A stretch of 64,000 nucleotides of DNA. Source: Actinomycetes bacterium. GTDB taxonomy: Bacteria > Actinomycetota > Acidimicrobiia > Acidimicrobiales > RAAP-2. Positions 17,561-55,530 of this stretch are shown one piece after another. The translations under genes and the position numbers were made by a program. The stretch spans positions 1-64,000 of the forward strand of contig JAJZBX010000009.1 of NCBI GenBank assembly GCA_021846325.1. The letters run 5' to 3'. Within the stretch, counting starts at the first letter, position 1. Each line of letters starts with the position of its first letter. The notes beneath the pieces were generated by a model, which saw nothing but the letters and a program-made list of their open reading frames with translations, ran no database searches and was not told the DNA's origin.

Positions 17561-17565
17561 CACGT

Positions 17566-17621
17566 GGCACTAACGAAAAACACCCCCGGGCGATCGCTCG
17601 GGGGTGTTTTTCGTTAGTGCC
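17566..17621. terminator. Bidirectional intrinsic terminator between rpmA and the HU gene
   Basis: Two 27-base arms, GGCACTAACGAAAAACACCC and onward, form an almost perfect palindrome with one mismatch and a 2-base loop. The GC core (CACCCCCGGGCG with CGCTCGGGGGTG) is flanked by A5 on one side and T5 on the other, so it has a U-tract in both directions. It ends rpmA from the left and the HU gene from the right. Confidence 0.92.
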
Positions 17622-17627
17622 AGTCTC

Positions 17628-49486: not shown

Positions 49487-52009
49487 ATGACTGACGCGAT
49501 TCGCGTAAGCCGCCCGCTATCGGGCACCGATAAGACCTTGAGTTTTGAGGCGGGACACCTCGCCCAACTCGCCGACGGAGCGGTGCTGGCGCGCATCGGT
49601 GACACGATGCTGCTAGCGACCGTGACCGCCGCACGCACCGTGCGAGAAGGGATGGATTTCTTTCCGCTCACCGTCGACATCGAAGAGCGCGCTTACGCGG
49701 CCGGCAAGATTCCCGGGGCGTTCTTTCGTCGCGAGGGTAAGCCCTCCGATCAGGCCATCTTGATCTGTCGACTCATTGACCGGCCGCTGCGCCCCTCATT
49801 CCCCAAGGGTTTTCGCAACGAGGTGCAGGTCGTCGGCACGATCTTCAGCGCCGACCAGGAAAACCCGCACGACATTCTGGCGATCAACGCGGCCTCGGCG
49901 GCGTTGATGTTGTCGGGCATCCCCTTCGATGGACCGATTGGTGCGGTACGAATGGCCTACACCACCGACGGGACGTGGGTGGCGCACCCGACCTACGCCG
50001 AAGGTGACGAGTCGGTCTTCGAACTCGTCGTCGCCGGACGGGCGCTGAGCGCCGACGCCGAGGCCGACGTCGCGATCATGATGGTCGAAGCCGGTGGCAC
50101 CGAAGGATCGTTTGAGAAGTACGCGGCCGGCGCTCCCAAGGTTGACGAAGACGTTTTGGCGCTGGGGCTTGAGGCATCCAAGTTGTGGATCCGTGAGGCG
50201 ATCAACTTGCAGCGTGAGCTCGTGGACGCCTACGTAGCCGCTCGTGGCCCGATTGACATGATTCCGTACCAATTGGTGCGTGACTATCAAGATGACGTCT
50301 ACGCGCGCGTGGCCGCCGTCGGCGAGACGGCCCTGGACGCCGCCAACCGCATAAGCGACAAGCAGGCTCGCGCTGCCGCGCTCGACGCCGCGACGGCCAC
50401 CATCATTGACCAGTTGAGTGCGGAGTTCGCGGACCGGACCGGCGAGATCAAACCCGCGGTCAAGGCGATGACCAAGAAGTTGGTCCGTACGAGGATCGTC
50501 AAGGACGGCGTGCGCATCGACGGACGCGCCACGTCGGACATCCGGCCACTCAGCGCTGAGGTGGACCTGTTTCCCATGACGCACGGTTCGGCCCTGTTCC
50601 AGCGTGGTGAGACCCAGGTGGTGAACGTGACGACCCTGGGCATGCCGCGGTTGCGCCAGCAACTCGACACGATCAGCCCCGATGAATTTCGCCGGTACAT
50701 GCACCACTACAACTTCCCGCCGTACTCCACCGGCGAGACCGGTCGAGTTGGCATGCCCAAGCGGCGCGAAATCGGCCACGGCATGCTGGCCGAGCGAGCG
50801 CTCATCCCGGTGCTACCCAGTGAGCAGGACTTCGCCTATACGGTGCGAGTCGTCTCGGACATCATGCAGTCCAACGGCTCCACCTCCATGGCGTCGGTCT
50901 GTGGCTCAACGCTTTCGCTCATGGCGGCGGGCGTACCGATCAAGGCTCCAGTCGCCGGCATCGCCATGGGCTTGATCCACGACGAGGACGCCTACGTGAC
51001 GCTCACGGACATTCTTGGTGCGGAAGACGCCTTCGGCGACATGGACTTCAAGGTGGCGGGTACTGCGGACGCCGTCACCGCGTTGCAGCTCGATACGAAA
51101 ATTGACGGTCTGCCCGCCGAGGTGCTCTCCAACGCGCTTCACCAGGCTAAGCAGGCTCGTCTTCGGATCCTCGAGGTGATCACGGCGACCCTGGCGGCGC
51201 CGCGCGCCGAGGTGTCGGCGGTGGCCCCAAAGATCGTGTCCATCGAGATCCCGATCGACAAGATTGGTGAAGTGATCGGTCCCAAGGGCAAGGTCATCAA
51301 TACGCTCCAGCAGGAAACCGGTGCCGACATCGCGGTCGACGACGATGGTGTCGTGGGCACCGTGACCATCGGCGCCAAGGATGGTCGAGCCGTCGAAGAG
51401 GCGCGGCGTCGCATCGCGCTGATTCTGGACCCGCCGACCGCAGAGGTCGGGGCGGTCTACCCGGGTCGCGTCGTCAACATTGCGAAGTTCGGCGCGTTCG
51501 TCAGCCTGATGCCGGGACGCGATGGACTGCTGCACATTTCCAAGATGTCGCCGCTCAACGGTGGCCAGCGCATCGGCCAAGTAGAAGACGTGCTCGAGCT
51601 TGGTCAGGCCATTGAGGTTCGCGTTGACGACATCGACCCGCAGGGCAAGGTATCGCTTTCGCTGGCTGGGGAGTACGCCGACGCCGACGCCGGTGACGGC
51701 GCCAGCCGATCGCGTGCGCCTCGTGAGCGCAGCGACCGAGGTGACCGAGGTGACCGTGGTGACCGTGGTGACCGTGGTGACCGTGGTGACCGTGGTGACC
51801 GAAGTGACCGTGGTGACCGTGGTGACCGTGGTGACCGTGGTGGTCGAAACGGACGTGGCGGTGAGACCCCGCGGGTACCCGTTTCGGCGTTCGAAGCATC
51901 CTTCGAGGCTGAGTTGTCCGGTGACCTCGGCGATCTCGGTCCCGGTGACGTTACCTTTACCGACGAGGGCAGTGCCAGTCGACGAGGGCCGCGCCCTCGA
52001 CGTCGCTAG
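49487..52009 (+). CDS. pnp: Polyribonucleotide nucleotidyltransferase (PNPase)
   Basis: 840 residues. It degrades RNA from the 3' end with phosphate. Two RNase PH domains (about 10-225 and 335-555; the second has TTLGMPRLRQQLDT and RREIGHGMLAERAL) flank a helical domain, then KH (about 570-635, with IGPKGKVINTLQQETG) and S1 (about 640-710, with GAFVSLMPGRDGLLHISKM). The tail is unusual: a run of Gly-Asp-Arg triplets (about 750-790), a Gly/Arg patch and an acidic/basic end. Good AAGGAG site before the ATG. The basic, repeated tail likely binds RNA. Confidence 0.97.
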   Translation: MTDAIRVSRPLSGTDKTLSFEAGHLAQLADGAVLARIGDTMLLATVTAARTVREGMDFFPLTVDIEERAYAAGKIPGAFFRREGKPSDQAILICRLIDRPLRPSFPKGFRNEVQVVGTIFSADQENPHDILAINAASAALMLSGIPFDGPIGAVRMAYTTDGTWVAHPTYAEGDESVFELVVAGRALSADAEADVAIMMVEAGGTEGSFEKYAAGAPKVDEDVLALGLEASKLWIREAINLQRELVDAYVAARGPIDMIPYQLVRDYQDDVYARVAAVGETALDAANRISDKQARAAALDAATATIIDQLSAEFADRTGEIKPAVKAMTKKLVRTRIVKDGVRIDGRATSDIRPLSAEVDLFPMTHGSALFQRGETQVVNVTTLGMPRLRQQLDTISPDEFRRYMHHYNFPPYSTGETGRVGMPKRREIGHGMLAERALIPVLPSEQDFAYTVRVVSDIMQSNGSTSMASVCGSTLSLMAAGVPIKAPVAGIAMGLIHDEDAYVTLTDILGAEDAFGDMDFKVAGTADAVTALQLDTKIDGLPAEVLSNALHQAKQARLRILEVITATLAAPRAEVSAVAPKIVSIEIPIDKIGEVIGPKGKVINTLQQETGADIAVDDDGVVGTVTIGAKDGRAVEEARRRIALILDPPTAEVGAVYPGRVVNIAKFGAFVSLMPGRDGLLHISKMSPLNGGQRIGQVEDVLELGQAIEVRVDDIDPQGKVSLSLAGEYADADAGDGASRSRAPRERSDRGDRGDRGDRGDRGDRGDRGDRSDRGDRGDRGDRGGRNGRGGETPRVPVSAFEASFEAELSGDLGDLGPGDVTFTDEGSASRRGPRPRRR
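51734..51841 (+). repeat. Twelve tandem 9-bp repeats in pnp
   Basis: Twelve copies of GACCGTGGT or close variants (GACCGAGGT twice, GACCGAAGT once), all in frame, encode the Asp-Arg-Gly run of the PNPase tail. Nine copies are identical, which suggests recent expansion by slippage; changes in copy number would keep the reading frame. Confidence 0.9.
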
Positions 52010-52043
52010 GACGGTATCGGGCTCTCGTTCACCCATGAACGTC

Positions 52044-52088
52044 GCAACTCGCTCGTCATCACCGCACGGACGATGACGAGCGAGTTGC
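52044..52088 (+). repeat. Perfect 17-bp inverted repeat over the start codon of the membrane-protein gene
   Basis: GCAACTCGCTCGTCATC (52044-52060) and its exact reverse complement (52072-52088) flank an 11-base loop. The right arm includes the ATG (52073-52075) and the next four codons. No T run follows, so it is not a standard intrinsic terminator. In mRNA it would bury the start codon; in DNA it could be a protein-binding site. It begins 34 bases after the pnp stop. Confidence 0.8.
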
Positions 52089-54751
52089 CGTCCGAGCGGT
52101 GGTGGCGGCTACTGCATCGGCGCGACCAGTGGGCGCTGGCGGTCATGACCGTACTGCCGCTCATCGTGTTCGCGGTTCCGGCGCTGGCCGGCCACCCGGC
52201 CATCGCCCAGGACAACCTGATTCAGAACTTCCCACTTCGCGTACTCACCGGCGCGCAGTTGCGCGGCGGACACCTTCCCCAGCTGAATCCGTTGGCCAAC
52301 GCCGGTACGCCGCTGCTGGCCGGCATGAACGCCGGTTCCTTTTTTCCGTTGACCCTCTTGTTCGTGATTCCAGCACCAGTGGCGATATGGGTCGTGAACC
52401 TCGTGGCGACCTACGTCGGCGCCGCACTGGGTCTGTTCGCGCTGCTTCGCTGGTACCGCATCTCGACGTGGGCCGCGCTCGTGCCGGCGTTGCTCTACAC
52501 CTACACCGGCGCCATGAACGGCCAAATGGTGCACCTCGGGGTGATCGAGGGGTATGCGCTCTTGCCGTGGTACGTACTGACGATGGTGGTGCTGGAGCAA
52601 CGCGTTCGCGACTGGACCAGGTCAGCGGGTTGGCGCACCGTGGTGCGCGGCGCGTCGGCGCCCGTACTCGGCATCGCGGGACTCTGGGCACTGACGACCC
52701 TGTCCGGCGAGCCGCGCGCGATCGCCGAAATGGAGCTGCTCGGCGCCGTCGTGATGGCCGCCGTGCTGGTCGCGTCGGCGTCGAAGCGCACCTGGACGTG
52801 GCGCCAAGCGGGGTGGTTTCTTTTGGCCAACGTCGTGGGCATCTCGTGGGGCTCGCTCATTGGTCTTGCCCAGCTGCTGCCGGGCTGGTCGTTCATCAAC
52901 ATCTCGCAACGCACCGGCATTGGGTACGACTTTTTTGGGGCCGGTTCGTTGCCGGTTCGCTGGACATCGCTCCTGCTCATTCCGGACCTGCTGGGTGGCA
53001 ACGGGATCCTTCACCAGCCCTCGTTCTTCGTCTCATACAACTTGCCCGAGGTCTCGGGGTACGTCGGCCTCGCGGCACTGGTGGCGCTAGGCGCGTTTCT
53101 AGCTCGCCGGACGCGTCACGGATGGCCGAACGACGACCGGCCATTCGTTCTGTACGTCGTGATCGGCGTAGTGGGACTGTTTGCGACGTGGGGCTACTAC
53201 ACCCCGCTGGGTCATCTCTTCGACGCCCTGCCGCTCTTTGGCAGCACCAGGCTCCAGAGCCGCAACGTCATCTTGGTGGACCTCGCCGTGGTCGTGCTGC
53301 TGGGCTGGTGGCTGGAGCGGCTGAGCGAGCACGACGTCCAGCGAGCGGGACTCGCGAAGCGACGGTTGTGGCTCGCCCTGTTCGCACCGGTCGCCGCCGC
53401 GGCCCTGGCCGCTGCGATGCTGATCGATGGCGCCCCGGTGCTTCGCTATCTCGGCGCGTCGGCGTCGGCGTCACAACTCGCTCAGGACCAACGGCCGACG
53501 CTCGTCGCCCACCTGGTCGTCGCCCTCGCGTTGATCGTGGTCGTGGTGGGCTTGTCGCGACGCCGGCGCCGCGCGCGTACTGGTCTGCACGTCGTCATCG
53601 CCGTCGACGCACTGCTGTTCTTCGCCTTCGCGACGACGGGGCTCGCCGCCGGTCACGTCAACGTCATGCCCTCGCGAGCCTCGGTCATTGGACGACTCGG
53701 CGCCGAAGGCCGAGTGGCCTTCGTCGGGGCGCCGGGCGTCGACGCGACGCTCTACGACAGTCTTGGCTCACCCAATGTCAACGTGTTTACCGGCGTCGCG
53801 AGTATTCAGGGCTACGGCTCGCTCATTGACTCGCTCTACGGGCGCGTCACCGATACGCACCCGATGTTCAGCCTTGACGACTGCCAGTTGGCCGACGGCA
53901 GCTTTCGCCAGCTTCGACTCGCGACGCTCGTCGTCTCGGCCGACGCGCTGTCGAGAGCACTGCCATTCACCCCGACCGCGCCGTCGTGCCTCGAGTCGCG
54001 CACGAGCACGCGGTCCTCGTGGTACTTCGGTCGGGTCGAACGCGTCGCCACGGTGGACGTGCGCGTAGCGACGAGCGGTGCCACGACGTTTCGGGCACGG
54101 CTCCTGGACGTGACCGGTCGACCCGTTGGTCCCGTGGTGGTGGCGACCGGCTCGTCGGCGGTTCACTTCAATTTCACGGGCGTTGGCGAAGCGAGTGCCG
54201 GTGTCGTGATTCGATCAGTGAAGTCCGTGAACACGACGTCGGTCGTGGTGACGTCATCGGCGCCATCGCCGACGCGACGACAGCTCGCGACGCCGTTGCA
54301 GCGGGCGATCGCCGGTGCCGGTTGGCGACTCATCTCCATGGAGGGCGCCAACACGTTCCTGCGAGCGACCTCGGTGCGACCGAGTGCCTGGCTCGGTTCG
54401 CACGTGGGGACCGCGAAGGTCATCAGCGTTCGCGACACCTCTTGGGGTGATTCGTGGATCACGGTGCGCGCGAGCGCGCCAACCGTGCTCAAACGCTCAA
54501 TGGAGTGGATCCCCGGTTGGCGGGCCACGGCGACCAACGTCCGGACCCATCGGACCATTACCCTGCACGTCGTGCGATCGGGATTGATCCAGCAGGTGTC
54601 CGTCCCCCGGGGTACCTGGACGGTGTATTTCTACTACCACGCCCCACATATCGATGTCGGCTTGCTCGGCACCGCGATCGGGACTACGGGCTGGATCGGG
54701 GCCGTTGTCATCTGGGGGCGAACGCGGCGTCGAGGTAAGATGCCCGCGTGA
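52073..54751 (+). CDS. Large polytopic membrane protein, YfhO/GT-C-like
   Basis: 892 residues. About 12-13 membrane segments span residues 20-530, starting with WALAVMTVLPLIVFAVPALAG. An extracellular loop motif QDNLIQNFPLRVLTGAQLRGG, then LPQLNPLANAGTPLLAGMN, resembles the first loop of YfhO-type and GT-C glycosyltransferase-like proteins, where an acidic pair often sits. The last ~330 residues are soluble, beta-rich and probably outside. YfhO proteins are linked to sugar modification of wall polymers; the job here is unknown. The start codon lies in a 17-bp inverted repeat. Its stop overlaps dapB. Confidence 0.7.
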   Translation: MTSELPSERWWRLLHRRDQWALAVMTVLPLIVFAVPALAGHPAIAQDNLIQNFPLRVLTGAQLRGGHLPQLNPLANAGTPLLAGMNAGSFFPLTLLFVIPAPVAIWVVNLVATYVGAALGLFALLRWYRISTWAALVPALLYTYTGAMNGQMVHLGVIEGYALLPWYVLTMVVLEQRVRDWTRSAGWRTVVRGASAPVLGIAGLWALTTLSGEPRAIAEMELLGAVVMAAVLVASASKRTWTWRQAGWFLLANVVGISWGSLIGLAQLLPGWSFINISQRTGIGYDFFGAGSLPVRWTSLLLIPDLLGGNGILHQPSFFVSYNLPEVSGYVGLAALVALGAFLARRTRHGWPNDDRPFVLYVVIGVVGLFATWGYYTPLGHLFDALPLFGSTRLQSRNVILVDLAVVVLLGWWLERLSEHDVQRAGLAKRRLWLALFAPVAAAALAAAMLIDGAPVLRYLGASASASQLAQDQRPTLVAHLVVALALIVVVVGLSRRRRRARTGLHVVIAVDALLFFAFATTGLAAGHVNVMPSRASVIGRLGAEGRVAFVGAPGVDATLYDSLGSPNVNVFTGVASIQGYGSLIDSLYGRVTDTHPMFSLDDCQLADGSFRQLRLATLVVSADALSRALPFTPTAPSCLESRTSTRSSWYFGRVERVATVDVRVATSGATTFRARLLDVTGRPVGPVVVATGSSAVHFNFTGVGEASAGVVIRSVKSVNTTSVVVTSSAPSPTRRQLATPLQRAIAGAGWRLISMEGANTFLRATSVRPSAWLGSHVGTAKVISVRDTSWGDSWITVRASAPTVLKRSMEWIPGWRATATNVRTHRTITLHVVRSGLIQQVSVPRGTWTVYFYYHAPHIDVGLLGTAIGTTGWIGAVVIWGRTRRRGKMPA
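54736..54741 (+). promoter_or_regulatory. -10 element of dapB (leaderless)
   Basis: TAAGAT, six bases (GCCCGC), then the GTG of dapB, inside the 3' end of the membrane-protein gene. Confidence 0.45.
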
Positions 54752-55530
54752 AGCGCGTCGTGATCGTCGGTGGCGCGGGGCGAATGGGCCAAGCCCTCAC
54801 CGTCGGGTTGAACGCACTCGACGGCGTTGACGTCGTCGCCCTGGTCGACGTGACGCGACCGCTCGACACCCACGGCGCACGCTACCTCGAGCGTCTCGAT
54901 GAACTCGAGGCAACGGACGTCGACGCCGTCGTGGACTTCTCCGCACCGGCTGGCGTGGTCGGGTCGGCTCACTGGTGCGCCACGACGCGGGTTCCGCTGG
55001 TGGTCGGTGCGACCGGGCTTGGCGAGGAGGCGTGGGCCGCGTTGCGGTTGGCCAGCCACGAGACGACCGTGATCGTTGCGTCGAACTTCTCGGTCGGTGC
55101 GGCACTCGCCGAACGTTTCGCTGCGCTCGCCGCTCCATACTTCGATCGGGTCGAAATCGTCGAGCTCCATCACGATCGAAAGGCCGACGCCCCTTCGGGA
55201 ACATCGATCGCGACGGCCCGGGTGATCGCCGCGGCCCGCCGTCGGGCTGGCCGCGCGACCCAGGCCGACCCGACCGTGAGATTCACGGTTGCTGGCGCCC
55301 GCGGTGGCGACGTCGATGGCGTGCCGATTCACTCGGTTCGCCTGCCGGGACTCGTGGCCCATCAAGAGGTGCTGTTCGGTGCGCCGGGAGAGGGCCTCAC
55401 GATTCGCCACGACTCCTTCGATCGGGCCAGTTTCGTCGCCGGCGTCGCACTCGCGTTGGAACACCTGTCGCCCGACGCGGGTCTCATCGAGGGAATCACC
55501 GCGTTCATCGAAGAGGACGTGAGAACGTAG
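54748..55530 (+). CDS. dapB: 4-hydroxy-tetrahydrodipicolinate reductase
   Basis: 260 residues. It reduces the product of DapA with NAD(P)H, on the way to diaminopimelate and lysine. NADPH loop VGGAGRMGQAL at the N-terminus, DFSAPAGV, and the catalytic ELHHDRKADAPSGT (His-His-x-x-Lys). dapA follows 24 bases later, so DapB comes before DapA in gene order though after it in the pathway. GTG start overlapping the upstream stop. Confidence 0.95.
   Translation: MKRVVIVGGAGRMGQALTVGLNALDGVDVVALVDVTRPLDTHGARYLERLDELEATDVDAVVDFSAPAGVVGSAHWCATTRVPLVVGATGLGEEAWAALRLASHETTVIVASNFSVGAALAERFAALAAPYFDRVEIVELHHDRKADAPSGTSIATARVIAAARRRAGRATQADPTVRFTVAGARGGDVDGVPIHSVRLPGLVAHQEVLFGAPGEGLTIRHDSFDRASFVAGVALALEHLSPDAGLIEGITAFIEEDVRT

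Follow-up and report, generated by a model that had tools for sequence, protein, structure and literature searches.

How a ribosome reaches a start codon that is buried in a perfect inverted repeat is the question raised by the gene that follows pnp in the window analysed here (the whole stretch of 64,000 nucleotides). The row of genes at this place, which we take from order and appearance to be truB, ribF, rpsO, pnp, a gene for a protein of 892 amino acids and dapB, was examined around the pnp junction. The polynucleotide phosphorylase gene pnp (49487..52009, + strand; stop codon TAG at 52007-52009) is preceded by AAGGAG and its product matches the Pfam families RNase_PH, PNPase, KH_1 and S1; the 892-amino-acid gene (52073..54751, + strand) starts with the ATG at 52073-52075; and dapB (54748..55530, + strand), identified by Pfam, has a start that overlaps the stop of the 892-amino-acid gene. 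The preliminary description had called the 892-amino-acid product a 'YfhO-like' membrane protein, a label that found no support in Pfam (no match at E 0.001) or NCBIfam (no match at E 10), and that is mentioned here only as the name first given to the gene. The sole match obtained, the Pfam family Leader_Trp at E 10, was below its own cut-off and was taken as chance. The 3' end of pnp (window positions about 51730-51850) contains a nine-base repeat encoding an Arg-Gly-Asp run, a low-complexity tail.

The inverted repeat consists of a left arm (52044..52060, + strand), a loop of 11 bases (52061..52071, + strand), within which the relatives described below can form 2-3 extra pairs, and a right arm (52072..52088, + strand) that includes the ATG, codons 2-5 and the opening base of codon 6 of the 892-amino-acid gene. 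As first described, the arms are 100% complementary (17/17 bp), the ATG lies within the right arm and no T run follows the hairpin. Exact inverted repeats with arms of at least 17 bases and loops of 3-30 were found at only two places in the 64-kb window (this one and 17565-17622) and at none in six first-order Markov copies of it; the segment 52030-52110 folds at -42.7 kcal/mol (z -4.19), a value that none of 200 shuffles reached. The inverted repeat thus exceeds what chance gives in this window. The other repeat, at 17565-17622, is perfect over 24 bp, carries T runs on both strands and is probably a bidirectional terminator. Hidden starts (probability of being unpaired at most 0.006) were predicted for 6 of 46 genes of the window, the 892-amino-acid gene included, the genes being called roughly and their starts picked by a rough rule. 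In the draft genome (2.28 Mb, 93.75% complete) the 17-mer sought as a possible dispersed copy occurs only at the two arms. Between 51500 and 52700, Rfam gave nine matches with E up to 1, all far under their gathering scores; the best plausible one on the hairpin was P37, with 22 bits against a gathering score of 50.

Relatives of the locus were collected by protein and DNA searches. The 892-amino-acid product matched in 36 of 61 genomes (some matches were weak or partial), and 25 of 30 inspected loci (L005-L034) have both pnp and dapB as neighbours of the gene; four of the remaining five are without one or both neighbours, and L034 comes from another family. A DNA search of 99 genomes of the genus, our own included, gave some match in 71, some of them short and elsewhere. 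The 76 junction loci compared are not all separate genomes (L009 and L056 come from one, as do L063 and L073), and the 49 rows of promoter type discussed below represent about 47 genomes. Four rows (L034, L086, L087, L024) were left out of the counts of promoters and T runs, of start-region z values and of changes in the tree; the tree did not include L073 and L074. The protein tree places the window in one clade with L006, L036, L038, L039 and L040 (98/92), whose sister group is L041, L043, L044, L046, L060 and L078 (98/88).

A covariance model found the full element in 6 of the 99 genus genomes, all of this one clade, with 37 candidates scored per genome under strict filters. Beyond these six strong hits, the model returned their weak mirror-strand hits and five weak hits in other genomes (E 2.3e-4 to 0.008), one of which, in G087, falls at the same junction (L097) with an alignment that spans the flanks and skips the start-codon stem. 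A model search of 17 further rows in which pnp appears to read through gave no match below E 0.01 besides L097. A dispersed repeat or MIRU-like element was rejected: the 17-mer is confined to the two arms and the strong model hits lie at one place per genome in 6 of 99.

An ungapped alignment of 115 columns covers the six junctions, and the element is at the same place in all six. Over the ATG, five of them form all 14 inner pairs and L006 has one mismatch among these; only the window and L040 also form all three outermost pairs, and they are the only two rows with DNA symmetry over all 17 pairs, the other four carrying mismatches or G-U pairs. Among 20 stem pairs, 11 are invariant, seven have changed on both sides and two depart by unpaired cells only. 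Over the whole 27-pair structure, none of 500 shuffles (which ignore the relatedness of the six sequences) reached seven double-changed pairs, and controls with slid partners gave 0-2; in the same 27 pairs and 500 shuffles the paired-cell share was reached by 2, the covariation score by 10 and the number of pair types by 15; the last two measures are weaker than the tally of double-changed pairs. Paired cells amount to 90.7%, compared with 33-46% when the partners are slid. In the window two letters of the right arm (codons 2 and 3) have been replaced and the left arm altered to match. The left arm of the window is 0.74 identical to that of the others, and those of the five relatives are 0.82 identical to one another; at four-fold sites of the 892-amino-acid gene the corresponding identities are 0.45 and 0.54. 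If the left arm is let drift as fast as four-fold sites, in a null that is crude because its starting point is the consensus of the five relatives, the probability of at least 15 Watson-Crick pairs is 1e-4; the window has 17. The predicted stem over the ATG folds and co-varies in all six members of the clade, leaving the start codon unpaired with a probability of only 0.0004-0.0007. A conserved RNA stem is thus well supported by the compared sequences. The preliminary description had proposed to look in relatives for both arms and the short frame described below, with compensating changes; all were present in the six clade genomes, and neither of the outcomes it had considered fatal (arms that are not conserved, a repeat dispersed through the genome) was found, the arms being conserved and the hairpin not dispersed. 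A small hairpin with a UUCG loop (52016..52033, + strand; alignment columns 11-28) is also formed in the five relatives, of whose seven pairs just the inner four can form in the window; it is included in columns 5-29, ahead of the start of the short frame, which are 0.88 identical among the five relatives.

Ahead of the ATG lies a short frame of 13 codons (52035..52076, + strand) that runs from the ATG at 52035 to the TGA at 52074-52076, overlaps the gene start in the form ATGA as first described, and holds the left arm in its codons 4-9. Its start is 25 nt past the pnp stop in all six rows (ATG in the window and L039, GTG in the other four), the TG and the following A being invariant. The frame has 12 codons in the five relatives and 13 in the window, and its stop overlaps the ATG of the gene in six of six: TGATG in five and ATGA in the window, where a C replaces the T of the relatives' stop and the frame ends at a TGA located one codon further on. 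Outside the stem, the identity of the window's short frame to the five relatives is 0.56 (columns 30-38) and 0.42 (loop), close to the 0.45 of four-fold sites, a drift that tells against a translated frame. All four bases occur at the third letter of codon 9 of the short frame, a four-fold site that is mostly unpaired. Since codons 4-9 sit in the stem, coding is inseparable there from pairing, and the stem largely accounts for the conservation of the frame; the third letter of codon 9, the exchange of ATG and GTG and the overlapping stop give only hints of coding. No Shine-Dalgarno motif was seen by eye before the short frame, and at the ATG of the gene such a signal is not consistent among the six. 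We infer that the short frame is translated.

The arrangement of the junction differs elsewhere in the genus. The sequence TANNNT, located about 12 nt ahead of the start, is a mark of leaderless genes, and such genes are common in Actinobacteria (PMC3160421). This box, tested for with a start codon required 2-9 nt after it in any frame, stands just ahead of the start codon in 45 of 49 other rows and in none of the six of the clade, and a T-rich run is present in the junction of 35 of the 49 and of none of the six. The hairpin served to define the six clade rows; a further 17 read-through rows were chosen by eye as being without terminator and promoter, which makes their zero count in this comparison circular, and they include L026 and L027 despite a terminator-like stem. 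A consensus scan found no promoter or terminator at the window junction, a weak result given that it called 6 terminators against a shuffle mean of 8.6. The six rows of the sister group are likewise without terminator and promoter at the junction. The clade seems, from these comparisons, to have exchanged an independent leaderless start for read-through from pnp and a locked start codon.

The start region (-40 to +60) of the six clade rows has z values from -3.75 to -6.82 (mean -5.26), compared with means of -0.33 in the 49 promoter-type rows and -3.08 in the 17 other read-through rows; values of -2 or lower were found in 6/6, 4/49 and 12/17 of them, respectively. A general rule by which read-through goes with a structured start was considered and set aside: the tree contains only three changes of arrangement, and with 2-3 independent pairs significance is unreachable. 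Some sister lineages have a strong stem within the first 20 codons and not over the start, so locking of the start codon may not be a common feature. In L041, L043, L044 and L046, inspected by eye, the stems lie in conserved codons and leave some mismatches uncompensated; they may be by-products of coding. In L060 and L078 a different stem, with about 19 pairs and a single bulge, holds the apparent GTG start in its left arm and, by eye, is kept in both with some G-U pairs. Another lineage, L014 and L015, also lacks terminator and promoter and has a stem with about 15-16 pairs within the first codons of the gene. At the L054 junction a 21-base unit beginning GTGAC is repeated several times at the gene start, giving several possible starts.

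Our best reading of these features (the predicted stem with its compensating changes, the overlapping stop, the missing box and T run), to which we give a probability of about 0.53, is translational coupling of the 892-amino-acid gene through the short frame, by unfolding or by reinitiation. The mRNA would continue from pnp into the gene, which is probable given that the junction shows neither terminator nor promoter, and the start codon would be paired within a stem of 14 to 22 pairs. A ribosome ending at the pnp stop would restart 25 nt on at the ATG or GTG of the short frame, or another would initiate there directly; it would read 12-13 codons, peeling off the left arm, and halt at the TGA that overlaps the ATG of the gene by 1 or 4 nt. 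Then the same ribosome would reinitiate at this ATG, or the exposed ATG would take a fresh ribosome. We infer four of these steps: that pnp and the gene share a transcript, that the short frame is translated, that the stem opens and that ribosomes reinitiate. Folding with the short frame held open frees the ATG well in three of the six (0.49-0.69), and leaves it at 0.12 in L038, 0.028 in the window and 0.007 in L039, where it is poorly freed because the released arm re-pairs downstream; folding with an initiating ribosome alone brought no change. These folds count against the reading, as do the equally hidden starts of other genes in the window. The preliminary description had left the choice between a translational switch and an incidental frame; the conserved arms, the short frame and the compensating changes favour the switch, with the coupling itself as the conjectural part.

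The same stem might instead serve the pnp message, as a stabiliser of its 3' end or as a cleavage site of the RNase III type, with the covering of the ATG as a side effect. Stems of about 20 bp suit 3'-end stabilisation or cleavage of double strands. Strong stems (score of at least 14) cluster at the junction across the genus, in differing places: 35 of 50 rows of type A, with L024 counted among them and L034, L086 and L087 left out; 5 of 6 clade rows, L006 missing the cut-off of 14 owing to its mismatches; and, among the remaining read-through rows, 7 of 17. Outside the junction, these loci have 0.005 (type A), 0.13 (clade) and 0.055 (others) such stems per kb. Nevertheless, 26 of 73 rows have no stem at this cut-off, and a role in the pnp message leaves unexplained why the stem is centred on the ATG, the stop overlaps it and the frame length is constant in the six. 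We regard this explanation as unlikely, if by no means negligible. Slightly more doubtful is a plain lock in which the short frame does no work and the stem is opened by a protein, an sRNA or ribosomes arriving from pnp: the stem does have better support than the short frame, yet the short start and the overlapping stop are kept in six of six even though the form of the stop has changed.

A palindrome bound as DNA by a dimeric regulator, the operator that the preliminary description offered as its alternative, would agree with the perfect symmetry in the window and L040, and symmetric changes preserve a DNA palindrome as well as an RNA stem. Single copies of the 14-base arm core, which would also suit an operator, occur at 8 further places in four of the six clade genomes, G094 having five, and no partner arm accompanies them at the places listed; the reversed control gave no place. 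The outer base pairs, however, switch identity among the relatives, two G-U pairs in L006 break the DNA symmetry, pairing extends into the loop in most relatives and the consensus scan saw no promoter at the junction; the G-U pairs and the outer-pair changes above all make the operator less likely than an RNA switch, and we consider it very improbable. An intrinsic pnp terminator without a U tract is the explanation to which we give the least weight. The hairpin is strong, GC-rich and occupies the place of the relatives' terminator-like stem; but a T-rich run directly after it is found in none of the six, the T runs that do accompany the other perfect repeat of the window are missing here, and stopping within the start of the next gene would silence a conserved gene.

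Coupling through the short frame, if correct for the clade, could belong to a wider pattern in the genus, in which the terminator of pnp and the leaderless promoter were lost and a new strong structure then came to gate the next gene. We consider this extension quite doubtful. If true, RNA processing or the flow of ribosomes from pnp would control the translation of a gene that had been independent, and in this clade a start-codon lock with a key frame of 12-13 codons could let PNPase, which is slowed when it meets stems at RNA ends and whose gene lies immediately upstream, set the output of its neighbour.

The principle of translational coupling is known; its instance in this small group of uncultured actinobacteria is new, and no literature on the pnp junction was found among the matches listed, which is weak ground for calling it absent from print, the searches having seldom been directed at the neighbouring genes. 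Leaderless starts with TANNNT (PMC3160421) are the arrangement of this gene in most other rows and are missing from the six. The clade is a natural and phylogenetically supported case of a gene that has apparently given up an independent leaderless start for coupled translation, the lock and its key frame being retained jointly. Coupling by unfolding and coupling by reinitiation have both been described and are still debated, as set out in PMC12548453; the great stability of the stem, the lack of a consistent Shine-Dalgarno signal and the minimal frame stopping on the ATG could help to discriminate between them. In the coat-lysis pair of MS2 and in rpmI-rplT, described in the same text, an inhibitory structure at the downstream start is opened by upstream translation, as predicted here; in those systems, however, the upstream frame is a full gene with a spacing of -50 or +52 nt, whereas at the pnp junction it has 12-13 codons and a spacing of -1 or -4 nt. 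The mycobacterial MIRU elements (PMC12548453, same text) similarly couple a short frame to a gene start through a -4 nt overlap; they are dispersed repeats, whereas the hairpin is found once per genome. The uORF-ppe2 pair of Mycobacterium tuberculosis is a further likeness: in PMC11260477, ppe2 has no Shine-Dalgarno motif, overlaps its uORF in the form AUGA and requires translation of the uORF, so that an actinobacterium, a short frame, the overlap and a downstream gene without a Shine-Dalgarno motif are common to both. According to the same text, the ppe2 region is controlled by a B12 riboswitch and the uORF has a Shine-Dalgarno motif of its own; the pnp junction differs in having no Rfam match near threshold and in placing the ATG inside a long stem.
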